DNA from: Lucifuga dentata
Lineage: Eukaryota > Chordata > Actinopteri > Ophidiiformes > Bythitidae
Length of the DNA: 64,000 nucleotides
Assembly (NCBI GenBank): GCA_014773175.1
Contig: VXCM01001516.1
Span: 36,303-100,302, forward strand
Direction: 5' to 3'
Of this stretch, positions 5,156 to 64,000 are shown one piece after another. The notes under the pieces are model-generated. The model was not told where the DNA came from. It saw only the letters and a list, made by a program, of their open reading frames with translations, and made no database searches. The position numbers and the translations under genes are program-made. Numbering within the stretch: the stretch's first letter is position 1; the number at the start of each line of letters is the position of its first letter.

Positions 5156-6345
5156 CGTACAGTACACACACCTATCTTCTTTCACAATCTCCCACGTGTA
5201 AGTGATTTCATCCTAAACAGGCCACATTTAGTGCAAATGCACACCATATTTTCTCACTGTTTCTATTAATAGCGTAACTCGTGGTTGTTGTCCATGCTGC
5301 TCTCACACACTGTGTCATTGTTTTCCCCCGTGTATCATATTCCATGTAGGAACATGAACAACAACAGGTTCCTTTTAGACGTCAGCAGAGCAACAGATTG
5401 CACAAACATGCGCTCGCAGTCTGATGCTCTGTGAAACAACCAGACATGTCAAACTGACCATGCGCGAATGCTGGCTTTGATGTTCATTAGGAGCTTTTTT
5501 GGGTTTCTAAACTGCTTAGCTTAGCATGTCAACCAAGACCTTTTCAAACACGATTAACCCAGATCTGTTGCACTCATCTTACTTTATGTCTGAAACTGAC
5601 AGCAAAAGTGTACAGGTGAGTGTCCCTGGCATCTAACAGGTAAAGGGTATGTCTACGAGTTAAGAATAAATACTTAAATGCAACTTTTTGATTGAACAGG
5701 ACCTCACATTAATGCAAAATACATCACACTGATAACAACTGATTAAATTAGCTTAAAAAAAGCAATGGAATGGAACTTTTAGATACATATTCACATTTTG
5801 TAAGTATTGTCTGATTGATAAATCTGAAGAGTGGGTGTGTCAGATACAGTATATTATGAGCATCAGTAAGCACTATAATAAAGTACATAGCAACATTGAA
5901 CCTCCTACATTTCCTGGTTACAAAGGACATATTCCCAGATATTCCCAGAAAGATGGTGGGTACAGGAACTCTTTACTGGGAAACTGGGTAACATCTTACT
6001 TGAAGCTTCTATAACATTTTTTATTTATGTACAATAACTACACATTTGGAACCGTTCTTATGTAGGATCTGGGCATGAATAATGCAGGAAGGACATTTTA
6101 TATGGTCATTAGTATAGCAACACTGTTATAAATGAGGAATTGCTGTGTAATAAGCAAGTCTTCAAGTAAAATGTCACCATAAAGTGCCCAGCTGTTGATT
6201 CTGCTGCACACGCATAGACAAAGAAGAAGACAGAGAGCTAATGCTAACGAGCTGTGCTTTTCTTTAGAGAGATAGACGTGTGTCAAACGGGCATCATCTG
6301 TGTCTTTGGGTTCAACAGTACAGGAGAAGATTCCCTAAATTGTTA

Positions 6346-9063: not shown

Positions 9064-11715
9064 TTACATCACGCTGCATTTGCCCTTCAGTCTCTCCGCG
9101 CGGGACTGCTTCCCCGAGCGCTTGCCGTCAATGTTGAGGCTCATGTTCCTCTTCTTGTCTAGGTTGAGCAGCTCCTGGAAGAGCTCAGTTACATTGTGGT
9201 TGGTCTTAGCGGACGTCTCCATAAAGGCGCACTTCCACTGGTTGGCCTGGGCTTCCCCGTCCTTTGTCTCCACCTCTCGTTGGGTCTCATCGCTCTTGTT
9301 GCCCACAANTGGCCTGGGCTTCCCCGTCCTTTGTCTCCACCTCTCGTTGGGTCTCATCGCTCTTGTTGCCCACAAGCATGATGGGGATGGCTTCAACATT
9401 TCCCTTTATAGCCAACACCTGCAAGAGGAGCAAACCGGGGGAAGGAGTGAGACGTTTGGGCCAGAAGACAGGCAGCAAGTTTATTTATATAGGACATACA
9501 CAGAGGCAACTCATAGTACTTTACATCAATATTAAAAGCAGGCATGATGGTTAAAATGATATAGCATAGCTTTAAAGAACCTTAGTGGTGATTTTGCATG
9601 CTTAAGGCCAAAATATTTCCTGTATATGTGAAGGTTACTGGCAACCATTTTCCAAAACGTGAAACCATATTTTAGTTTTACTTCCAAATTCTCTAATCAT
9701 TCAAAATCAAATGCTCAGGTGATACATCCACCTTAAAATTCAATGTTTCACCTGCTAACATGTACAAAAGGGAACAGTCATTTTTAATTTCTTGTTAAAA
9801 GAAGTCTTCTCCTGGGACTATATTCCCTGGCGGAGACATACAGTTCCTTCTGTGCAGCTCCGTGTTGGACCGGTTAAATAAAGTTACTTTGACAAAAAAA
9901 TGTAATAGACTACATTCGCTGTGATAGGTTACTTATCTTGAGTTCTTGGTTGCAATAATATTTTGGCTGCATAGTTACAATCTAGTTTGATTTACTAAGA
10001 ACTTTTATATAAGGAGTGTTTTGGTTGTTTACTCTGGAAGTTAGATTGGCACATGTGTGCACTACTGAATGTATAGTAATAATGATCTTATAAGTCTGAC
10101 ATTGAGACCAAGCAATAACAGATTTTAACAGGTCAGAGGTAAGCACAATTAATAGCATATTTCTCTAGGTTTATAGAGTAAATATTATAACATCCACTTT
10201 TAATAAGCAATATTATAAATGGGAAAATCTATTTAAGAGTGATTCACACCTTTATCTTTATATCAGTTCTTTTCCTTTCAAGTTTATTCCAAGACACCTT
10301 TCAGGTCTCTACAAGCTGATTTTAATCACATCCTGAAATCAAATGAAACCAATGACAGACTCAACGGCAGGAAAAGCAATTAAAATATTTTCTGCTCCAG
10401 TAGCGTGTTTTGAGAAATGGTTGTCAGTAACGTAATGTGTGTGGGTGTGTATATATTTTCAATGCAAAACCATCAGCATTCAACCTTTAAGGGAAGATTT
10501 GTTTTGGGAGAAAATTTTTTCCCCAAAACAGCCAGCTTTTCCCCAAAGCTGGCTGGTCTGTAGCTCCAGCTACAGACCAGCCAGCAAACATTAATGTCTC
10601 GCTCAAGGACACTTTGAGCCAGCTGGAAAGTTGCAGACAAGGTGTGTGATCCGGTCATCTGGCTCACTTTAATAACTAGGCCACCCTGTTGCCCAAAAAA
10701 AGGCATTCAGTGTCTCTAAAAGCAACTAGATCTGTGCCGGGTAATTTATAGCACCTCTGAGGACTGTTTGAATTTTCCAGATCAGTGGTTCTCAAACTGT
10801 ATGAACCAAGTTCCATGTCTGAGTAAACCACGACATCCAAGTACCACCTCAATAACAGGACACCAACTCTAAGACAAGATACAACCCATACCAATCCAGT
10901 TTATCATGTGTCATGTATCGTGTATCATGTATTGTGTATCATATATTGTGTGTGTCATGTATCATGTGTATCATGCATCGTGTGTATCATGTGTATCATA
11001 TATCATGTATTGTGAGTATCATGTATCGTGTGTATCATTATCGTGTGATCATGTATGTATCATCTATCGTGTATCATGTATTGTGTGTGTCATGTATCAT
11101 GTGTGTTGTGTATCATGTGTATCATGTATCGTGAGTATCATGTATTGTGTGTGTCATGTATCATGTGTGTTGTGTATCATGTGTATCATGTATCGTGAGT
11201 ATCATGTATTGTGAGTATCATGTATAGTGAGTATTGTGTATTGTGAGTATCATGTATCATGTGTGTCTTGTATCGTGTGTATCATGTATCATGAATTGCC
11301 TGTGCTGTTATAGTGAGTTATCACAAACATACTTTTACACTCCCAAATATATAAATATACTCACTATACAGTCAAACAAACACCACTAAATTACACACAC
11401 ACACACCTGTTGGTATATGGGTTTGAGCTCCTCCAGAGACTGTTTACTGGTGATGGAGTAGACCAGGATGAAGGCATGGCCCTTGGAGATGGACAGGCGC
11501 TGCATGGCAGGGAACTGGTGGCTCCCTGTGGTGTCGGTGATCTGGAGGGTGCACACGCTCTTATCGCAGCTGATCACCTGACGGTAGGTGTCCTCCACCG
11601 TGGGGATGTAGGTGTCCCTGAAGGTGCCTTTTACAAAGCGCAGGACCAAGGAGCTCTTCCCCACTCCACCTGCCCCGAACACCACCACTCTGTAGTCGTT
11701 GCTCTGCTCCGGCAT
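9064..11715 (-). CDS. diras1: DIRAS-family small GTPase, diras1-like
   Basis: Two coding exons on the minus strand: 11715-11407 (103 codons, donor GTGTGT) and 9418-9064 (acceptor CTTGCAG, stop TAA). The protein starts [20 protein letters not shown], which is the DIRAS N-terminus with its P-loop. Further visible motifs are YIPTVEDTY (switch I), DTTGSHQF (G3, with the DIRAS replacement of the Ras catalytic Gln), NKSD (G4), ETSAK (G5) and a C-terminal CSVM prenylation box. Exon 2 contains an N at 9309 with the same 66 bases on both sides. Removing one copy plus the N restores the frame and gives 198 aa, the length of DIRAS1. The C-terminal stretch [14 protein letters not shown] is DIRAS1-like, while FILVYSITS and LKPIYQQ resemble DIRAS2, so diras1a/b versus diras2 is not fully settled. 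DIRAS proteins are membrane-attached Ras-like GTPases with low intrinsic GTPase activity. A plausible 5'UTR acceptor (TTTTGCAG) lies just upstream of the ATG near 11755. Confidence 0.95.
9478..9545. repeat. Dispersed repeat fragment in the diras1 intron
   Basis: TTTATTTATATAGGACATAC followed by ACTCATAGTACTTTACAT resembles a common fish repeat whose reverse end reads TATATAAATAAA. Short and fragmentary. Confidence 0.4.
9572..10500. mobile_element. TTAA-flanked inverted-repeat MITE, copy 3 (in the diras1 intron)
   Basis: Element 9576-10496, more diverged and longer (about 920 bp). It begins AGAACCTTAGTGGTGATTTT and ends in an inverse sequence before CCTTTAA. It keeps the inner CTCCTGGGACTATATTCCCT block. 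It lies in the intron between the two diras1 coding exons. Confidence 0.75.
10548..10585. repeat. Perfect 17-bp inverted repeat (hairpin)
   Basis: Arms GCTGGCTGGTCTGTAGC (10548-10564) and its exact reverse complement (10569-10585) flank a 4-base loop. It lies at the edge of an interspersed repeat fragment and just past MITE copy 3. Confidence 0.85.
10560..10695. repeat. Fragment of a fish interspersed repeat
   Basis: GTCTCGCTCAAGGACACTTT and CTAGGCCACCCTGTTGCCC are the landmarks of the same family found more fully at 43.9 kb. Confidence 0.45.
10900..11295. repeat. Minisatellite with TATCATG/TATCGTG units
   Basis: About 400 bp made of irregular repeats of GTATCATGTATYGTG with variants (GTGAGTATCATG, GTGTGTCATGTATC) and higher-order copies of roughly 60 bp (11064-11146 versus 11127-11210). 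It is open in two plus frames, but the product is a Cys/Val/Ser/Tyr-rich repeat with no gene character, so it is treated as non-coding. It lies in the diras1 intron just beyond coding exon 1. Confidence 0.9.
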
Positions 11716-32899: not shown

Positions 32900-34150
32900 T
32901 TGGAGTCTCTCGACCAATCAGACATCTCCATTGATCACCGATGATTGCAGCAGGTGATAAAAGAAACGGACTGTTGCGTAGTTTATTCCTCTCATTTAGT
33001 AAATGTACATAAGGTCCACAAATTTAGGGAAAGCTCCTCCGAATATCACTTGAATTGATCTAGTTTATTTTATTTATTTATTCAATTAATTTATTTTATT
33101 TTATTGTTAAAAAAATTTTCAATATAAAAGCAGCTTTAACTTTTATGTTTTCTAAGGTTAAACTATATTTTAAAAAGCTTATTGTATATCTGATGAATTA
33201 CTGATCTGTGCAATTAAGTAACCAGACCAAGCTCAAGTTTGTATTTACTGATTTAGTTTAACAGTCCTCTGATTAAATATGTTCTAAAACTTTTAAAGTA
33301 TGTATATTGGCTATTGACAGAGATCTACAAACTTGAAGCAAACAACAAGGAATAAATTTATGTTTATTTATTTCGAAATAGTCTGCTGTGGCCTAAATCT
33401 ATATGATGTATATAACTTTATGTCACATTTACTGCGATCCAATTACCTAATGTTAATTTAACTTAATTCCAAAATTTAAATATAAGAACTAAGGTTAATT
33501 GGGTTTACAATTACCGGTAGGTTTCCTTGCTAAAAAAAAAAAAAAAANAAAAAAAAAAAACCCGATGATTTCCCACTATCACAAGTAAAGCACCATTATG
33601 AGATCACAATTACGTATATGACAGCAAGGAAGGGGATTCAACAAATACCAATCTCATGCCAGTGGATCCGATTTGCCAGCAGAGGGCATCCTGCTGCAAT
33701 TTATGAACAAAGTCTTATAGGGAGTTTTGTGAGGTCAAAAAAGAAAGAAAAAAGGTCAGGGAGTTTTCTTAATCAGTCCCTTGAGGAGATTTTTTTTCAC
33801 TCCACCCCACTGCTTACTCTCAGTTTCACAAAGACAGCTGTATGTTAAAATATTTTGCATTATTTTTATGCATCAATGCTTCCAAGAGTTTAAAGTCTAA
33901 AGTGAGAGTTTATTTGAATTGTTTTAATGGTCTGCATCAAGATGATGTTTCCAGTAGCTCTTCTTATCATGTTGGTCTTGCTAAGTCAGGGTGTGAAATT
34001 GGAATCATTTATCAAATATTGATAGATAATACATTAATGAATGAAATCTTTTCCTTACCCCATTCATCTATTCTTGGGAAAATAATCAAAGATGTTGTTA
34101 ATGCTATAGGCTGTTTCAGATTTTAAGAAAGACCTACAATTGTTTCACTT
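32900..34150. other. AT-rich spacer between REEP promoter and Ig V relic
   Basis: Very AT-rich, with an A-run broken by an N at 33548. The open frames at 33.6-34.1 kb have no recognisable domain. Confidence 0.5.
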
Positions 34151-34160
34151 GTTATTTCAG

Positions 34161-34340
34161 AGTCATCTGCCAACACATTTCTCACTCAGACTGAAAAATC
34201 CAAGTCTGTTGGTGTTGGAGGGACTGTGGTGTTGATCTCAGCTTAAGAAAGCTGGTCAGGCTTCAAAATGGAGCGTCAAAGCTAAACTCAGGAACTCCAT
34301 CTAAATTCAGTAGCAGTAAATTTGGCTCTCAAACTTTAAA
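34161..34340 (+). pseudogene. Ig light-chain V segment relic
   Basis: After a splice-acceptor-like TTATTTCAG, the sequence translates as SSANTFLTQTEKSKSVGVGG, the framework-1 start of a fish light-chain V. The reading then breaks (stop after VVLISA), and only short scraps resembling AGQAP and GTPSKFS follow in mixed frames. The start is closely similar to the minus-strand V at 60.9 kb ([14 protein letters not shown]). No leader exon or RSS is visible, so it is a truncated relic. Confidence 0.75.
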
Positions 34341-34850: not shown

Positions 34851-35321
34851 ATGACTCTCATCACCATCCTCATCTGGACGCTGGCCTGCTGCTGCTTTAC
34901 AGGTTCATTCACTCAGCAACACTTCAGACTTCCTGTGCTGCCTTTTCTCTGATTGATTTCTGTTCATCAATCAATGATTTGTTTCTGTCTGCAGGATGCA
35001 ACGGTCAGGTGACTGTGACTCAGCCTCCACTAGTGACATTTACTCCAGGATCCACTGTTACTATCACCTGTAAAACGAGCAGACCTGTTTATGTGGATAG
35101 CGACAATGATGAGTATATATTCTGGTATCAACAGAAATCTGGTCAGGCTCCAAAACTCCTAATAAGATATGCGAGCACACGTCTGTCAGACACTCCAGCT
35201 CGGTTTAGTGGCAGTGGAAGCAGCACTGACTTCACTTTGACCATCAGTGGAGTTCAGGCTGAAGATGCAGCAGTTTACTACTGTCAGAGTGAAAATGACG
35301 TAAAGTTTGCGGCTCTGTTCA
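34851..35321 (+). CDS. Immunoglobulin light-chain V segment, apparently functional
   Basis: Leader exon 34851-34901 ([17 protein letters not shown], donor GGTTCA-type) and V exon from about 34996 (acceptor TCTGCAG) to 35321. The V domain reads [20 protein letters not shown] then TCKTS with conserved Cys23, [15 protein letters not shown] (framework 2), [19 protein letters not shown] (framework 3) and AEDAAVYYC. It has no stop or frameshift up to the RSS. Framework signatures and the 12-bp RSS spacer point to a teleost kappa-like light chain. It is a germline V segment needing RAG rearrangement to a J. No J or C exon lies near it within the next 24 kb on either strand. The codons after Cys ([12 protein letters not shown]) are an unusually long germline CDR3 start. 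Confidence 0.92.
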
Positions 35322-35349
35322 CACAGTGATTTCTGGTCATACAAAAACC
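35322..35349 (+). promoter_or_regulatory. 12-bp-spacer recombination signal sequence
   Basis: Heptamer CACAGTG (35322-35328), a 12-bp spacer (35329-35340) and nonamer ACAAAAACC (35341-35349), all matching consensus perfectly. It directly follows the V coding end. Together with the 23-spacer signal seen at 59.4 kb this gives the kappa arrangement (V-12, J-23). Confidence 0.95.
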
Positions 35350-48534: not shown

Positions 48535-54330
<5,796 letters not shown>

Positions 54331-55470
54331 GTCATCAAGAAGCCTCAAGGAGGAACTACGTGCCAACCTAGCCACGCCCACTGACGCTCTGCCCCGCCTC
54401 TGCAGGAGCTGCAGAGTGGTCTGCGTGATTAGAAAGGGTCAAGTAGCTAAAAGGAAAATTAAAAACATCCGCCCACGGCCTTGCACAAATACTTAAACAC
54501 GCATGCTCAAACTCATACTCCAACAACATAACTACAATTATTATTCCCAAAGTAATTAAGAATCAAATTGCAATCTATTACTAAGAAAGTAAATTATTAG
54601 TTTTTGGAATTATTACTCTTGGAGTAATCTATTACTTTTAGAAGTAAAATATGAATCAAAATTTAAAGTGTTTTTTTCAAATTACATACAGTCATACAAA
54701 GAGGGTTAAGAGAGACTGAAAATGACATTCATTTTATTGTTCTTTATATAATCACAGGAGGTTTACTTTTTCATAAAATGTCCTCAGTCGCTGGAGATTT
54801 CTTCTGGCAGGATGATTATCAAAGACTTACTTAACTTTTTCATTTTGTACTTTGTTTGCAGAATCTGTGGATAAAGTTTAGGAGAGTTGACAAGTAGTCT
54901 ATTTGTGATATAAACATATAAACTTAAAACTCTTTTGTTTAAGGTTTTGTGACTTTACTATAATGTACTGTATATATTTTAATACTAACAAATACTAGTC
55001 TGCAATATAAAGTTTATCTTAATACAAGGTAAACTAAGATGTTGTTCAATATAGGTACAGGTAAGATCTTTACCATGCGCAATGAGTGCTTGATATACTG
55101 CAGTGCTTAAAGAAGAACTGTCATTTTATGAGACACGACATGTAACTATTGCATAAAGTACACAATGAAAAACAGCATTCATGCAGGATCACAGTGCAAT
55201 CAGATGGGCCTATGAACAGACTGAATATTGCAACAGTATAGCTATAAAGCTATGAAGAGCTTTTTTATAAATCATCACTATCTTTGTTTGGAGTCAAAGC
55301 AAATAATTGTAAATTGTGATGCAATAGTGGCATTCTGTTATTTAAGATGCCGCGGGAGTGTCTGCCAACAATAATGCCTTTGCCTTGAAATAATATTAAT
55401 AATGTTCTGCATAGATTAAATAATGTGATTTACTATCTACAATACAGTATACAGTATTTACAACATTGCC

Positions 55471-58400
55471 CTATCTATAATAGGGACTATAGTTTATCTG
55501 CAGCTTGTCATATTTCATAAAGGGCTGCTCTGTCATCACCTGGACCATCGTCATAAACCCAAAAATCTGCATGAAGGAAAAAAGAAAAGGAAGTTAACTG
55601 CCAAATAAGTGTAACAAGATAACATTGTGCAGTTAATCTAACTGCAGATGCAGTACTGATTTGCAATGAAAAATGAAAAGCACTATGTACCTCAAAGTTT
55701 TGAAAATTCAAATACTGACAAATGAAGTTAAAACTCATTTGGATTGCATAAAAATGTTCATTCAGATTGCCTTCCAGTTGAAGAGTAAAACATCACAGAT
55801 CCCATATCATTGCATTTTTGTCCAATCAAACCTCAACTGAAAACATATAATGTTACACGACTGGGTACAATAATTTTCATATAGATGCAACTACTACATT
55901 GTTTTGGAATTCACTCTGGGAACCCCTTACCTAGCTTTAACATGAATAAGTGCCTCTGAATCATTCTCTCATAATCATCCAGGGTGCATACTGCATGAAG
56001 TATATACAGAATAAACAATCCAACAACAGTATTAAGTGTTTCCTACCTCCACCACCAGTACCAGTGGAAAGGACCAGATAATGAGTTTCAGCATAAACAA
56101 AAAGGCCACCTTCAGCTTCATCTGGCAGCCCTGACATGTACAAGAGACACAAAGACAGCAGGAGGAAAAAAGGGGTTCAATCAGACTTGCAGGATGGATC
56201 ATGTTTGTTTGTTCCTGTTTGTATATTTCTACCTCTGGATACAGCTGCCAAGGTTGATCTAGAGTCGCGTTGCAGGAATGAAAGGTGATGTTGCAGCAGC
56301 TGTGAGGAATCCTGAGTCCTCCGCTATGGTTAAACCAGGCAGTTTCCTCCCAGTCCCTGAAGTCATGAACACCACAGCACTGCAACTAACAGGGATCAGA
56401 GCAGAAAATACTGAAATAATTCAGATATCGCTGGAACATGATGGATAATATGTGAGTCTTGATGAGTGCAAAATAGTTTTGGTTTTGCTGTATTGACTCT
56501 AGAAAGTCATGGACAAAAAATATGTGTGCGATTTTATGGACCCAGATGGAGCCTCTATTGAATAAGCAAACGCACAACTTTTGGCATTAATATTCTCATT
56601 AGAATAACATAATTTGAAATCACCATCAAGGCATGAGGTGTAATTAGCTGCTGAGGCTCTAAAATCATATGGAAAAATGCTAATGACTTTGTATTTTAAG
56701 ATAGACGTGGGGATTTTTTAAAATTTATTTCATAAAAGTTCAATCCATTCTTTTGCACTTTTACTCTTTTAAGCTTAATTGTGCTGCCTTTTTTTCCTTT
56801 CCCTATTACCTGCAGCCCCTTATTAAATCGAGTTAGTGCCTTTATCCACATTCTATTTACTTCTATCTTCAAATATCCTATTTTTGATAATTTGATCATT
56901 ATTTTGAACAGGTTTTTGAATGGATGCTTTGTAGCCTGTATTGTTCAAAGTATGTGGATGCTTACTGTATATTCATTTATTGAGTTAATTCACACTACAT
57001 TTCTGTGTTTGCATGCATCTTAGTGTGTGTTGATGCATGTGATCAGGGGATTAAGTGTGATATTCTGTTTGAAAAAAGTCACCTGGAATGAGGTGCAAAG
57101 AAAATGGAGTCATGCTCTTCTCATATGGTTGATCAAATTGTTGCGAGCTGAAAATATATGGCACACAGACACAGACACACATGGATACACAAGTACAAAG
57201 AAACACACACCTCTTCTTGCAGGGCATCCACAGCATGAGTGGTGGGATTCTGGCTGCTCCCTGTGTATTTATTAAACACTCCACTGAGTGGAGCTATTTC
57301 TGAATCCAGCTAAAAAATAAACATGAAGAATTTTCTGAAGTCTTAAGTCTGGATAACATATACAGTTCCAATGCATATCAAAGCATGGGGCAACCCCTAT
57401 ACCTGTCCAGAGTGGAAATAGGCCAATGCAGAAGCTGTGCTCTCCAGGCAAAAGACCACAACCAGCAGATAAACAAACTGTAAAGAGGAAACACTTTATT
57501 ATCTGAACACCAATGGGCACACATCCACACATTCATATTCACACACAGAGACAAGAAATAACATTACCAGTCCCTGCAGAAATGTGGATTCCCTGGTGGC
57601 CAAGCAAAAGATGAAGCATCCGCTGACCAGTAGTAACGCTGCGCTGGCGAGAGCAAAGACTGCTGGCAGGATGATGGAAGAGTGAGAGAAGAACAAGCTG
57701 CTCTGTTTGTACTTTAACAGCAGGTAGACTCCACTCAGGCCCACCACCAACGCCACCAACTGTAAAGTAAAAAAAACAAACAAACAAACAAAAAAAAACT
57801 GATATTGATTCAGTTCAGATATTGATTCATTTTCAGACAAAATATAATTGTGTTGTAATTTTTAACCTCTCAGCCACTCTGGGTTGAATTTTGGTATCAT
57901 ACAGGAAACTTTGCAAATTACAGAGAAGCATAGGCTCTCATGAAAGACTATTCTGCTCTATTCTCTTGGACATTCCTCTAGTTCTGGCCTGGTTACCCCA
58001 GCTTTAGCTACCATGAGAACACACAGATCATGTCTTCTGAAATCTGTGGAGGTAGACCACCAGAGGGTCTACATGGACCAGATGGGTGTACAAAATATAG
58101 AGGGTTGTCCAGCACCATCATTTGCTGCATCTCTCACTAGTATATCAGAGTGCTTCTACTCTGAGTTGGTTTAATAGCAGCTTAAATTTGCCTTCTATTT
58201 GAATTGATCTTGCAAATAATGTTCTCAGGCTACTTTGAATAAATCAATTACCCGCAATGAAAACCAGAATGGTTTTAAACAAGATATCCAAGTATATTGG
58301 ACCTGCCTTAAATCCATATCATGAGAAATCACCCTGAATGAAGGTGATGATTTGTTCAGATCACAAAACATGTTCTGCATATTCTGGCTTTCTGACATGG

Positions 58401-58723
58401 GTGCAGCCATGAGAAATGGATACTCTGTGTAGTATTATGCTGTTCATACTTCCTTAAACTGAAACACACGCACGCACGCACACACATATTTCTATAGTCT
58501 TGAGTCAAACAATAGGGCCATTGACAAATCATGCTGCTTATTTCTAAACATAAGAATTAATGAATTAATTGAAAAGGATTTTATCATTATTATTAGCAGC
58601 AACGAGTGCCATCTTGGTGTAAGAAAACAACAACACGAAAATAAGTGTCATACTCACCCACAGAAGCTGACACGTGATCTGAAGGCTCAGTCTTAAAGTT
58701 TTTCTTCTCTGATTGATCATCAT
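55471..58723 (-). CDS. Tetraspanin
   Basis: Seven exons on the minus strand: 58723-58658, 57759-57568, 57477-57403, 57309-57211, 56385-56233, 56130-56047 and 55566-55471 (stop TAG). Every internal junction is phase 0 with GT-AG, giving 254 aa. TM1 starts at LVALVVGLSGVYLLL, TM2 is PAVFALASAALLLVSGCFIF, TM3 is FVYLLVVVFCLESTASALAY, and TM4 is VAFLFMLKLIIWSFPLVLVV. The large loop carries the tetraspanin CCG (LQCCGVHDFRDW), then SCC, C and a final GC before TM4, six Cys in all, plus N-glycosylation sequons NHS, NIT and NAT. The N-terminus MMINQRRKTLRLSLQ is basic and cytosolic. Tetraspanins organise membrane microdomains with integrins, Ig proteins and enzymes. It is not a clear orthologue of a human family member that I can name; a fish-specific member such as tspan37 is possible. 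Candidate poly(A) signal AATAAA at 54738-54733. Confidence 0.9.
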
Positions 58724-59281
58724 TGGTCGTTCCTGTGGCTGTGGCGAATTAGAGTTCGCAATTCTCGATGCAACCAGCAGACTGTAAGGCGAAAGCTACA
58801 TGAACCAATTCTTCATGTAAAATCTGTCTGACAAAAACGAAAGCAGACTGAGAAGGGTTTTTTTTTTTAAATCATTGCAGCAATTGCTGTAGAGCAACTT
58901 TGCTTCCGCGATGTGCAATAATTAACTTCTCCAAAGAACGCGGAACCATCAGGAGTTTGAACTGACAACTCATCAACATTAAAACCACATGATGTGTCCT
59001 GTAATATGGGTGGAATTAGCATCATGATATGATTCAGATGCACAACAACAAATCTCGGCACACAACAGGGTGTGTGCGTGTGTGTGCTCGCGCGCTTGAC
59101 AGACAGCGAGACTTGCATACCTGTGGTTTTAAAAGGTCTGATACAGATACATGTTCCTCAGCAGCCATTCTTTGTTGATCGACATGCTGTAAAGATAAGC
59201 CTGATGTTCCCAGTAAGACTTTTAAGTCAAATATGCCATCGCACAGTTTCATAATCGAAAAATATGTGCAGAGGGACATTG

Positions 59282-59428
59282 CTGTCAGAGTTTCTTCTCC
59301 TTCAGCAACTGCAGTTGGTTCCTGCTGTAACAGCTCAGAGTCTCTGCAGTCTGACTAAGGAGGTTTTTGTATGACCACAAATCACTGTGCACAGTGATAC
59401 AAACTCATGAAGTGGCTGTACAAAATAA
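59282..59428 (-). promoter_or_regulatory. V(D)J signal joint: 12-RSS fused to 23-RSS
   Basis: On the minus strand, CACAGTG (59389-59383), a 12-bp spacer and ACAAAAACC (59370-59362) form a perfect V-type RSS. The sequence beyond it, down to 59282, is nearly identical to the 3' flank of the intact V at 35.35-35.43 kb. Touching it with no base between, on the plus strand, is CACAGTG (59390-59396), a spacer of exactly 23 bp (59397-59419) and the nonamer-like ACAAAATAA (59420-59428). Heptamer-to-heptamer fusion of a 12- and a 23-signal is the signature of a RAG signal joint. The V that this 12-RSS belongs to is missing from the minus strand beside it, and a V of the same family appears joined to a J just downstream. 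Confidence 0.88.
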
Positions 59429-59588
59429 ACCTCCTACACTTAGAGCAAACAACTTTCCTGTGAAAAGCTGTCTGATTTTCCAATAAAACTGCAAAACTTT
59501 GCAATATTTTAAAATTTTCAAAAGTACTTCTTTGATATTTATCTGTTTTCCAGTGAATCAAGAATTTTTGTTGTCAGTTTTTCTTCAG

Positions 59589-59925
59589 GATGCAGCAGTC
59601 AGCCTCCACTAGTGACATTAACTCCAAGATCCACTGCCACTATCACCAGTAAAACTAACCCAGCTGTTTACAGATATTCTCCCTTTGGTGACGACATGTT
59701 CTGGTATCAACAGAAATCTGGTCAGCCCATACCGAAGCTCCTAATAAGATACGCGAGCAAACGTCAGTCAGACACTCCAGCTCAGTTTAGTGGCAGTGGA
59801 AGCAGCACTGACTTCACTTTGACCATCAGTGGAGTTCAGGCTGAAGATGCAGCAGTTTACTACTGTCAGTTTCCATAGTGGCTATGTGTTCACTTCTGGT
59901 GGAGGAACCAAACTTGTCGTTGACT
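59589..59925 (+). pseudogene. Germline-joined VJ light-chain pseudogene
   Basis: V exon after acceptor TTCTTCAG with framework blocks [34 protein letters not shown] and AEDAAVYYC, close to the intact V at 35 kb. Defects: 15 bp lost in framework 1 between two CAG repeats, and conserved Cys23 changed to Ser (TGT to AGT). The V frame stops at TAG 59876-59878. Only about 10 bp after the stop, in the +1 frame, is a J segment reading FTSGGGTKLVVD (the usual FGGG with Phe mutated to Ser), ending in a consensus donor GTAAGT at 59926. No RSS lies between V and J, so this is a V-J coding joint. No leader exon is visible in the 150 bp upstream and no C exon downstream. It cannot encode a light chain. 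Confidence 0.88.
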
Positions 59926-60192
59926 GTAAGTACCAGAAATTTCTACTTTAATATTTAGTTTTGGTGGATTTTTCTTGAACAACAAAGAAAATATTAGATT
60001 TTTTTTTTATTCAAATTGTGTGATATTTACTGTTAATCATATCAGTTTGATCTGAATATGCTGTAATGATCTATGTCCAATTGGTTTATATTTGGTATTG
60101 ACAGAATTTTGAAATACATTTTACTTTTTACACACCATGTAATACTTATGAGGGAATGTAATACATTTGAATATCATGTGTTTCTGCTGATG

Positions 60193-60231
60193 ATGATGGC
60201 TATGTTCTGTTTTGCAGAACATAGCCATCAT
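60193..60231. repeat. Perfect 17-bp inverted repeat (hairpin)
   Basis: Arms ATGATGGCTATGTTCTG (60193-60209) and its exact reverse complement (60215-60231) are separated by a 5-base loop. No T-run or gene context suggests an RNA gene. Confidence 0.8.
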
Positions 60232-60488
60232 TCATGTTATTTGTTACACCTGTGTTGTATCTGCTCTGACAGAGTGAAAATGTGCACCATGAGAAATTCT
60301 AGGTTAACCTTTCCTTTTTACATCGTGAAGTTTAATAAATATAGATTTAAAGTTGGAAACTGCTTTTCAGTTGGTTTTATTTAGAATCACTTGTGTGGCA
60401 GAGACAGAGTGTTGTGTTCACTGGTCCAGTTTTGCTCATCACAGTTTCCTCAAACAGCTGCAGTTTTCAGTGCAGACAAACAGCAGGA

Positions 60489-60516
60489 GGTTTTTGTACG
60501 ACTCTAAATCACTGTG
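60489..60516 (-). promoter_or_regulatory. 12-bp-spacer RSS of the minus-strand V pseudogene
   Basis: On the minus strand: CACAGTG (60516-60510), 12-bp spacer and ACAAAAACC (60497-60489), both elements consensus. It follows the V end [12 protein letters not shown]. The signal has stayed intact although the V itself is broken. Confidence 0.92.
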
Positions 60517-61080
60517 TGAACACACCACTACCATGGTAACCCAGGCAGTAATAATTTCCAGCATCTTCAGCCTGAACTCCACTGATGGTTAAAGTGTAAT
60601 GAGAACCAGATCTACTACCACTGAATCTAGATGGAGTTCCTGAGTTTAGAGTTGATGCATCATATATAAGAAGTTTGGGAGCCTGTCCAGGTTTCTGAAG
60701 GTACCAGCTGAGATCAGCACCAATATNTCATATATAAGAAGTTTGGGAGCCTGTCCAGGTTTCTGAAGGTACCAGCTGAGATCAGCACCAATATTTGAAC
60801 TTCCTGTGGAGCTGATAGTCACAGTCCCTCCAACACTGACAGACTTGGATTTTTCAGACTAAGTCAGAAAGTTGTTGGCCGATGATTCTGTAATGAGAAA
60901 TGAAATGAAAAAAAATCTAAAATTTAATTAGAGTGGAAAAAACAAATCAGTGCCAAAAGTCAATAAATCAGACAGGATTTGCAGCACAGAAAAATATCAG
61001 AAATATTACGTAAATGTTTCAAGTTTCTCACCCTGACTCAACAAAGCCAACATGACAATCAGAGCTACTGGAGACATCAT
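60517..61080 (-). pseudogene. Ig light-chain V pseudogene with intact leader and RSS
   Basis: Leader exon 61080-61032 (MMSPVALIVMLALLSQ, donor GTGAGA) and V exon 60887-60517. The V reads [10 protein letters not shown], then [52 protein letters not shown] and NYYCLGYHG. Two defects: a TAG in framework 1 where Gln is expected (FLT-stop-SEKS) and Cys23 replaced by Ser (TCC for TGC). An N at 60727 has the same 67 bases on both sides, and an N at 61110 likewise duplicates most of the leader; both look like assembly artefacts. An octamer-like ATGCAAAA lies near 61244. Orientation is opposite to the other V segments. The defects could be read from trace data before accepting them. Confidence 0.85.
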
Positions 61081-62008
61081 CCTGATGCAGTTTTCAGCGT
61101 GAGAGCACANAAAGCCAACATGACAATCAGAGCTACTGGAGACATCATCCTGATGCAGTTTTCAGCGTGAGAGCACGAAAACAGTTCACTTTTGCTGTCA
61201 TATAAGAACATAAACTTCAACTAGGAGCAGTGATGCATAAAAATTATGCAAAATACATCCTAACAAGAAAAATACACACGTGTGTGAAACAGAGAACAGA
61301 GAGGTGAGGTGGCCAGAAAACTGATTCTAAGAGAATTTGTTGTTCTATTTAAAAAATAATCTGAGAACTCTTCTGCTTTTTGTTGGTTTTGTTTCTATGT
61401 CATCGACACAAAGTGATTCAAGATTTTAATTCTTATTTTATTGGACCTGGGTGCCCCCACCTGGTAATCCTCCATGTTTGGTGGGAAGTTCAGATTGATC
61501 AACAGATGCAAGTAATTCAATACAAATGAGTGAAAACTGTGAAAATACAAAATCAATAATCAGGATTATGAATACACTGGTTACATGTGAAAACATTTAC
61601 CTTCGCCTCAAAGAAATCACTCTTCTACTCTTAAGTATAAAAAAAACAAAAAAAAACCCCACACAATTAGTCTTTTTACAAGATTGAACATGACACTCAT
61701 TGCTGTTAGGAACATAACTCTTTTAAAAGATATATCTTAAAGACTAATTTCTAAATGACAAATCAGTTGGTTTAGATGATATATTTGTTTTAAAAAATGA
61801 GAGATGAAACTGTTATGGGAACACAGAGACTCTTGGTTCATTAAAACCTTCACTTGGGCTCCATGAACAGGCCCTCAGGCTCTTTCCTTCTCCAAAACCT
61901 GCAGAGTAATGTGTGTAAGTCAGCAGCTCCATGTGCATCATAAGTGATTATATTAGAAGTTTTGCTAATAAAGTTCACATTGATCAGTCACATTAGTCAT
62001 TTAGTTCA

Positions 62009-62047
62009 AAAAGCCAACATGACAATCAGAGCTACTGGAGACATCAT
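62009..62047 (-). pseudogene. Orphan Ig V leader exon
   Basis: A copy of the V leader (MMSPVALIVMLA, then a break) reading from 62047 down to about 62013. At the duplication junction the splice donor and V exon are missing and unrelated sequence follows. It belongs to the second unit of the local tandem duplication. Confidence 0.75.
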
Positions 62048-62261
62048 CCTGATGCAGTTTTCAGCGTGAGAGCACAAAAACAGTTCACTTTTGCTGTGAT
62101 ATAGGAACATAAATTTCAACTAGAAGCAGTGATGCATAAAAGTTATGCAAAATACATGCTAACGAGACAAATACACACGTGTGTGAAACAGAGAACGGAG
62201 AGGTGAAGTCAAGAGAAAACTGATTCTAAGAGAATTTGTTGTTCTATTTAAAAAATAATCT

Positions 62262-63302
62262 CAAATAGTTTAATCTTTCTTCAACTCATTTCTATAGGTA
62301 TCTATAGGTGCGCAGTTTTATTTCTTCCTTAATTAAGTTGTATCCAAATGGATCCTTTTGCTCTCCTGTAGAAAAAGTGTTGCAAGATTCTGAGCCCTGA
62401 AGGCTAGATTTTATAAGGCACTTTCCATTTCGGGGGAGAATATGAGCCATCTCAAGTCTCAGTGGGAATCTGATTTTGGGGAAATTATCTCAGATGATGT
62501 TTGGGAAAAGGTCTGGTTAAGTTCATCCAGATGTTTATCCACCAATAAAATTAGAGAGTTGCAATTTAGGATTATACACAGACTTCAAATTACTCCATTA
62601 CAACGAAATAAATTTAATCCAGCGCTTTCAAAATTTTGTAATAAATGTAAGATTTGTCAAGGGACATATTATCACTGCATTTTTCAATGCCCCTTAATAA
62701 TTTTTGGGAATTGGTTTATATAGAAATTTGTAAAGTGTTTGGGGAAAAATTGAACCTTAGGCTTGTGTCATGTATCCTTGGATTACATACCACTGTGAAC
62801 CTTAAACCCCATATGATGAAATTTTTGGATATTTTGCTGTTTAATGCCAGGAGATGTGTTTTACTTCATTGGATTGATGATAAACCTCCTGGTCTTCCAC
62901 AATGGTTTCATGGTATTATGGAATTTATGAAGCTTTAGAAGCTTTGAGCTTCTGGGGTAAGGACAGGCCTGTAATGTTTTATAAAATCTGGAATCCCTTC
63001 TTGGACTACATAGATGCTAGAGATACTCAGACTCTGCGTTGTGGCCTTTTTGGACTTGCGGTCAGGTATAATTTAGATTTGCTGATTAATGTCATGTTCA
63101 TTTCCTGTCTCATCCAACACTTAGATGCATTGTTATAATCTATGTCTGTATTACCCTTCACTTTTTGGTTTGTTTTGTTTGGTTGCCTGCGTTTTTTTTT
63201 TTTTTTTNTTTTTTTTTTTTTTTTTAGGTAGATGTTTTTGTTGTTCGTTGTTTGTTTTGTTGTTGAAAATTAATAAAAATAAAATAAAATAAAATAAATC
63301 CT
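62262..63302 (+). mobile_element. 5'-truncated LINE (L1-type ORF2 C-terminal end)
   Basis: Plus-strand frames encode the end of a non-LTR retrotransposon ORF2: EKVWLSSSRCLSTNKIREL then LQFRIIHRLQITPLQRNKF, a Cys-rich motif KFCNKCKICQGTYYHCIFQC, and after a frameshift GLHTTVNLKPHMMKF, RRCVLLHWIDDKPPG and FYKIWNPFLDYI, typical of fish L1-like elements. It ends in an A-rich tail of AAAAT repeats. It interrupts unit B at the site that is intact in unit A (AAAAATAATCT then GAGAAC), which gives both boundaries. The element is disabled by truncation and frameshifts, and there is an N in a T-run at 63208. Confidence 0.8.
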
Positions 63303-63939
63303 GAGAACTGTTCTGCTTTTTATTGGTTTTGTTTCTATGTCAACACAAAGTTACTCAAGTTCTTAATTCTTGTTTTCCTGAACCTGGGTGCCCCAGTAAT
63401 CCTCCATGTTTGGTGGGAAGTTCAGATTTATCAACAGATGCAAGTAATTCAATAGAAATGAGTGAAAATTGTGAAAATACAAAATCACTAATCAGGATTA
63501 TGACAAACATTGGTTACATGTGAAAACATTTACCTAGCCTCAAATAAATTATTCTTCTGCTTTTAAATATAAAGAAAACCACAATTAGTCCTTTAACAAG
63601 ATTGAACATGGCACTCATTGCTGTCAGGAACATAACTCTTTTAAAAGATATATCTTAAAGACTAATTTCCAAATCAGTTGGTTTAGATGATATATTTGTT
63701 TAAAAAAAAATGAGAGATGAAGATGTTTTGGGAAGTCAGAGACTCTTGGTTCATTAAAACCTTCACTTGGCTCCATGAACAGGCCCTCAGGCTCTTTGCT
63801 TCTCCAAAACCTGCAGAATAATGTGTGTAAGTCAGCAGCTCCATGTGCATCATTAGTGATTATATTAGAAGTTTTGCTAATAAAGTTCACATTGATCAGT
63901 CACATTAGTCATTTAGTTCATGGAGATGTTCGTGGTATG

Positions 63940-63941
63940 CT

Positions 63942-64000
<59 letters not shown>
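63940..64000. repeat. Terminal poly-T run
   Basis: Sixty or more T to the window edge, starting after GGTATGCTTC. A contig end at a homopolymer is likely. Confidence 0.8.

Follow-up and report, generated by a model that had tools for sequence, protein, structure and literature searches.

A signal joint beside a V-J coding joint in a teleost kappa-type light-chain locus: probable scar of an inversional RAG rearrangement in the germline

How does a V segment come to be joined to a J segment in a genome assembly of Lucifuga dentata, close to two RSS that stand head to head? The window, i.e., the whole stretch of DNA analysed here, is the right-hand 64 kb of scaffold C1261 (both ending together) from an assembly of 598 Mb in 8189 contigs; positions are those of the window unless another scaffold is named. 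The two-joint structure sits between two other V segments, V35 and V60, and the features concerned are the following:

34851..35349, plus strand: V35, an intact, unrearranged relative serving as reference (leader, V exon, 12-RSS at 35322-35349)
59212..59361, minus strand: 3' flank of the original V, outside the proposed inversion (identity to the V35 3' flank)
59362..59389, minus strand: 12-RSS of V, CACAGTG-12-ACAAAAACC, heptamer 59389-59383, nonamer ending at 59362 (RSS scan)
59390..59428, plus strand: 23-RSS of J (inverted), CACAGTG-23-ACAAAATAA, heptamer 59390-59396, nonamer 59420-59428 (RSS scan)
59429..59588, plus strand: remaining inverted spacer, comprising J 5' flank and then probably the 3' part of the V leader intron (shuffle-tested scores against V35)
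59589..59892, plus strand: V59, V exon with a 15-bp FR1 deletion, Cys23 changed to Ser and a CDR3 frameshift (alignment to V35; Pfam V-set, E 2.9e-11)
59893..59925, plus strand: J fused to V, Phe changed to Ser (similarity to the germline J of scaffold C3423)
60489..61100, minus strand: V60, representing a second V type; its 12-RSS is perfect (heptamer at 60516)

The explanation favoured here, with a probability of about 0.86, is that a RAG rearrangement by inversion reached the germline and decayed afterwards. In a teleost kappa-type (L3/L1-like) cluster with V on the minus strand, left of a plus-strand J, RAG would have cut at the 12-RSS of V and the 23-RSS of J, and end joining would have inverted the piece between the cuts. 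The products would be a precise signal joint at 59389/59390 and a V-J coding joint at 59892/59893, the latter lying 503 bp further right. The rearranged cell would have been passed on to offspring, with subsequent decay comprising loss of leader and C, the CDR3 frameshift, the changes of Cys23 and of the J Phe to Ser, and alteration of the J nonamer.

At 59389/59390, the minus-strand 12-RSS meets the plus-strand 23-RSS, heptamer against heptamer and with no base lost. A preliminary description of this DNA had reported a perfect 12-RSS touching a 23-RSS here, and the scan agrees: the 12-RSS has 0 mismatches, and the spacer of its partner (59397-59419) is 23 bp long. Perfect 12-RSS occur three times in the window with both strands scanned, at V35, at V60 and at 59389. 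The nonamer ACAAAATAA of the 23-RSS agrees with the consensus at 6 of 9 positions; its three mismatches could be read as the consensus GGTTTTTGT carrying a 3-nt insertion. Compared with the RSS of torafugu J1a-c/J3a-b (L1/L3), as given in Table 2 of PMC5241823, the J 23-RSS 39-mer is identical at 33 of 39 positions and its spacer at 20 of 23. Kinship of the V and J signals to torafugu IGL marks the DNA as that of a teleost.

Chance occurrence of these signals was modelled with simulated sequence (first-order Markov, dinucleotides of the window). In 20 Mb, there were 0 heptamer-heptamer 14-mers, 0 perfect 12-RSS and 2 23-RSS with an ACAAAA core, compared with 1, 3 and 1, respectively, in the window. 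The torafugu J signal reached at best 26/39 in 4 Mb of simulated sequence. RSS arising by chance were rejected on the basis of these simulations. The second-best score in the window (27/39) belongs to a 23-RSS-like site at 5725-5763, which has no J motif and probably represents chance.

The DNA beyond the 12-RSS had been described as V flank left behind in opposite orientation at 59282-59361; the match to the V35 flank in fact extends further, down to 59212. Identity to the V35 3' flank is 95 % for 59389-59283 and ~82 % for 59269-59212, and ~56 bp of V35 flank are absent in between. From left to right, the order is thus V 3' flank, 12-RSS (minus), 23-RSS (plus), V (plus) and J (plus), and this order, as well as the orientation of both joints, can be read directly from the DNA. 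The inverted segment corresponds to 59390-59892 (503 bp), and flipping it in silico restores both parental segments. V59 together with the reverse complement of the left flank is then colinear with V35 through V exon, GTTCA coding end, RSS and flank, the colinearity being less clear in the 3' leader intron.

With gaps set aside, the un-inverted V agrees with V35 in FR2-FR3 at 162/171 positions (94.7 %, 5 gap columns), in RSS and near flank at 101/106 (95.3 %, 1 gap column), in the distal flank at 54/66 (4 gap columns) and in the FR1 piece at 34/38 (10 gap columns; ends clipped by the chosen coordinates). That identity is alike to either side of the coding end speaks for the V59 exon and the displaced flank having belonged to one V. 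CDR1 and CDR3 differ from those of V35 in length and sequence, and BLAST of 59599-59869 against V35 yields 86 % identity over 271 columns. J regains an L1/L3-type 23-RSS upon un-inversion. The arrangement is, as had been proposed, that expected from inversion of a minus-strand V left of a plus-strand J, and one such inversion accounts for every piece. V with a 12-RSS and J with a 23-RSS conform to the kappa-type (L1/L3) pattern, and the V-set domain is kappa-like, with antibody light chains, several of them named kappa, among the best 60 matches listed.

The coding joint at 59892/59893 agrees with the description of a V running straight into a J: V59 enters J with no RSS in between, and the donor GTAAGT follows at 59926. 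V35 and V60 end in GTTCA\CACAGTG, and V59 in GTTCA\CTTCTGG (the backslash marking the coding end). Since GTTCA precedes the heptamer in both V35 and V60, the V59 coding end is probably complete or nearly so. For the J side, comparison is offered by an unrearranged J on scaffold C3423, which agrees with 59888-59931 at 36/44 positions (including 5 V-side and 6 donor bases) and with the fused J proper at 26/33 (counted by hand from the alignment). The RSS spacer of the C3423 J is like that of torafugu at only 12 of 23 positions; because of this other spacer, it is not the same J. TCA is common to the V end and to the start of the C3423 J (GCTCACTTTTGG), and at these shared bases V-side and J-side origin are indistinguishable. 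Judged from these ends, the joint could be an ordinary trimmed or microhomology joint, in which either J lost ~5 bases to trimming or TCA served as the point of joining.

The cluster on C3423 (13.3-16.8 kb) comprises a V with altered heptamer, the unrearranged J and a C, all on the plus strand; with this organization, rearrangement would be deletional. The stretches scanned in pieces (all of C5138, C3423 and C7158; C1729:54655-94654; C1261:1-36302) yielded no unrearranged J with the RSS type of the locus; J of another type were present there once on C3423 and once on C7158. In a DNA search of the own genome (15 matches listed, best candidates scored), the window itself was the sole full-length match. 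At the end of scaffold C1729 (94334-94654), promoter and leader share 98 % identity with those of V35. They adjoin another V, its 12-RSS reading CACAGTG followed by a spacer of 10 bp; this is a close V35 paralogue that the scaffold end truncates.

The joined gene had been characterized as decayed, which the following details bear out and extend. Cys23 is replaced by Ser (TGT in V35, AGT in V59) and the J Phe likewise (TTT in the C3423 J, TCT here), both as previously noted. In the torafugu IGLV1 group, an Ala occupies the Cys23 position (PMC5241823, in the passages on this group), so that loss of Cys23 alone need not mean death of the gene. The statement that the join is out of frame with a TAG requires partial revision. 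The TAG does lie in the V frame, but the last V codons are in frame with J, which places the frameshift upstream of the joint, within CDR3. The first bases of the Cys104 codon and of J codon 118 lie 31 nt apart, a distance not divisible by three. Between Cys104 and the V end, hand counts give 40 nt in V35, 31 in V60 and 29 in V59, only V59 being out of step. TTC A stands at the V end in all three, and V59 reads through the joint into J in one frame. The join was probably in frame originally, and at least one indel in CDR3, upstream of the joint, would have broken the frame before or after joining.

No leader exon was found within 59390-59588, where the best score (14) was reached by 169 of 200 shuffles. 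The V35 leader intron, placed directly before the V exon, scores 37 against the inverted spacer (reached by 1 of 200 shuffles). The V35 promoter, for which no match is expected, scores 35 (5/200), and the V60 intron is also above the shuffles (3/200). Because the promoter scores so high, the presence of a leader-intron remnant in 59429-59588 is weakly indicated on its own. The missing leader needs either an extra deletion or a V that was leaderless at the time of the event.

A C exon was not detected either, neither as a C-type motif in the window (the same scan found the C on C3423) nor as an Ig domain by Pfam in three forward frames from 59900 to ~60515; the search ends at position 64000, together with the scaffold. 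Having a J for which no C exon was found, the locus is classed as a decayed remnant rather than an intact kappa-type member. Within the window, 59926-60470 shows no further similarity except for a self-complementary hairpin in the former J-C intron (60193-60231), 39 bp of which match their own inverse at 87 %.

Further V remains lie in the surroundings. A degenerate V of the second type (leader and part of the V exon) is located at 33850-34331 (plus strand) just upstream of V35, with 69-72 % identity to pieces of V60. This V with V35 and V59 with V60 form two V-type pairs in opposite orientation, ~24 kb apart. To the right of V60, 61111-61330 recurs at 62010-62229 (93 %) and 61353-62000 at 63291-63912 (88.5 %); between these repeats lies what we take to be a LINE-like reading frame.

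V(D)J recombination involves breakage by RAG exactly at the heptamers. The position of both breaks exactly at heptamers therefore argues for RAG as the enzyme. Counted against a RAG inversion are the missing leader, the imperfect nonamer of the 23-RSS, the failure to find an unrearranged J sharing this RSS type in the stretches scanned, and the reliance on a single assembly. Passage through the germline is likely, as the gene's parts are dead and the assembly, albeit a single one, shows only the rearranged state. If lymphocytes were present in the sequenced tissue, the assembler might have picked a somatically rearranged molecule; inversional VJ joining is a normal somatic event in fish (zebrafish cDNA), and all data come from one assembly. 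Yet rearranged molecules should represent a small minority of the DNA, and RAG would have had to pick a dead V (no leader found, no Cys23, FR1 deletion) as well as a dead J (Phe and proper nonamer lost), rendering a somatic origin unlikely. Highly improbable is carriage of a gene joined in a lymphocyte into germline DNA by a transposon, for which passages of PMC6170632 argue in the case of catfish TCR, i.e., germline VDJ with retained introns. Here, signal joint, V flank outside the inversion and J donor are all present in the expected order, and V60 adjoins.

Misassembly or chance, as the cause of two RSS standing head to head next to a V-J fusion, deserves consideration, since overlap artefacts do exist in this assembly. 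The single-N joint at 9309 is flanked on both sides by an exact 66-bp repeat and that at 60727 by one of 67 bp; the latter joint interrupts the V60 exon, and a 66-bp exact copy adjoins another single N at 61110, by the V60 leader. The joints at 60727 and 61110 are probably unmerged contig overlaps, the former falsely splitting V60. This explanation is nevertheless scarcely credible for the two junctions: both breaks fall on heptamer borders, the longest repeats across them within the window measure 17 bp (the palindrome of the signal joint itself) and 9 bp, no N occurs between 51763 and 60727 (51764 to 60726), and the nearest N is >800 bp from either junction. Two separate events, a deletional V-J joining at this place and re-insertion of an excised circle, which could in principle supply the signal joint, have a virtually negligible probability. 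Two steps would be needed, and the signal-joint flank (95.3 %) and the coding-joint V (94.7 %) match the same V35 alike, as for one V split by one inversion. Retrocopying was likewise rejected: J is followed directly by its own splice donor, and both breaks coincide with RSS heptamers. The weakly supported leader-intron remnant also speaks against it, as does the signal joint standing beside the coding joint at the original place.

The inversional RAG rearrangement favoured here has a somatic counterpart. Opposite orientation of V and J with inversional rearrangement is a usual geometry of teleost kappa loci according to the relevant passages of PMC5241823, PMC5192425, PMC3014032 and PMC11223323. 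In zebrafish, torafugu and cod, segments, orientation and products are the same as here; in these sources, however, the inversion is somatic, being seen in zebrafish cDNA and, for torafugu and cod, deduced from how the genes are oriented, whereas here it stands in a genome assembly.

Germline-joined V genes had been stated to be known in cartilaginous fish, which is right, though incomplete. Lee et al. 2000, as cited, attributed the germline-joined Ig V(D)J genes of these fish to RAG in germ cells, and the chromosome carries V already joined to J, as though RAG had acted in the germline, which is also the present case. V, D and J of their clusters, however, tend to share one orientation (PMC5192425, section on these clusters), with deletional joining, so that the signal joint leaves with the circle that is cut out. 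In the present locus, a dead teleost light-chain gene, inversion has preserved both joints. In channel catfish, germline VDJ has been reported in IgH (Ventura-Holman and Lobb 2002, as cited) and TCR (passages of PMC6170632). These too are rearranged genes in the germline DNA of a teleost, but of heavy chain or TCR; the same passages explain the TCR copies by transposition of DNA transposons, and the IgH copy reportedly adjoins a Tc1/mariner element. The terms 'signal joint' and 'inversion' have 0 occurrences each in PMC6170632, as has 'signal joint' in PMC12698447. The latter describes, in the parts concerned, a pre-joined V-J of newt TRD, fixed in the genome as here, but at another locus and expressed. 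The fused V of marsupial TCR mu is likewise fixed in the genome, but belongs to another locus and is a proposed retrocopy (per passages of PMC6170632).

Statements on the distribution of germline joining vary among the passages concerned: it appears peculiar to cartilaginous fish in PMC5192425 and is called unique to them in PMC3308330 (IgH) and PMC4279169, whereas PMC8355894 mentions few teleost cases and one mammal. Among the matches listed in a literature search on germline-joined genes and signal joints, judged by title and start of the abstract, none presented a germline signal joint beside a coding joint; priority cannot be claimed on this basis.

Few records show how far RAG acts in the germ line of animals other than sharks, and a germline signal joint comes close to a signature of RAG itself. 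In a wider and still tentative sense, which we consider somewhat doubtful, teleost light-chain clusters with opposite V and J may undergo germline RAG rearrangement, inversion leaving a datable two-joint scar of a kind that deletional joining cannot produce, and this locus may once have been an in-frame, possibly expressed germline-joined light chain that lost its frame later in CDR3. The scar, a V-J with a 12-RSS and a 23-RSS standing head to head next to it, provides a simple search pattern for counting such events across fish genomes.
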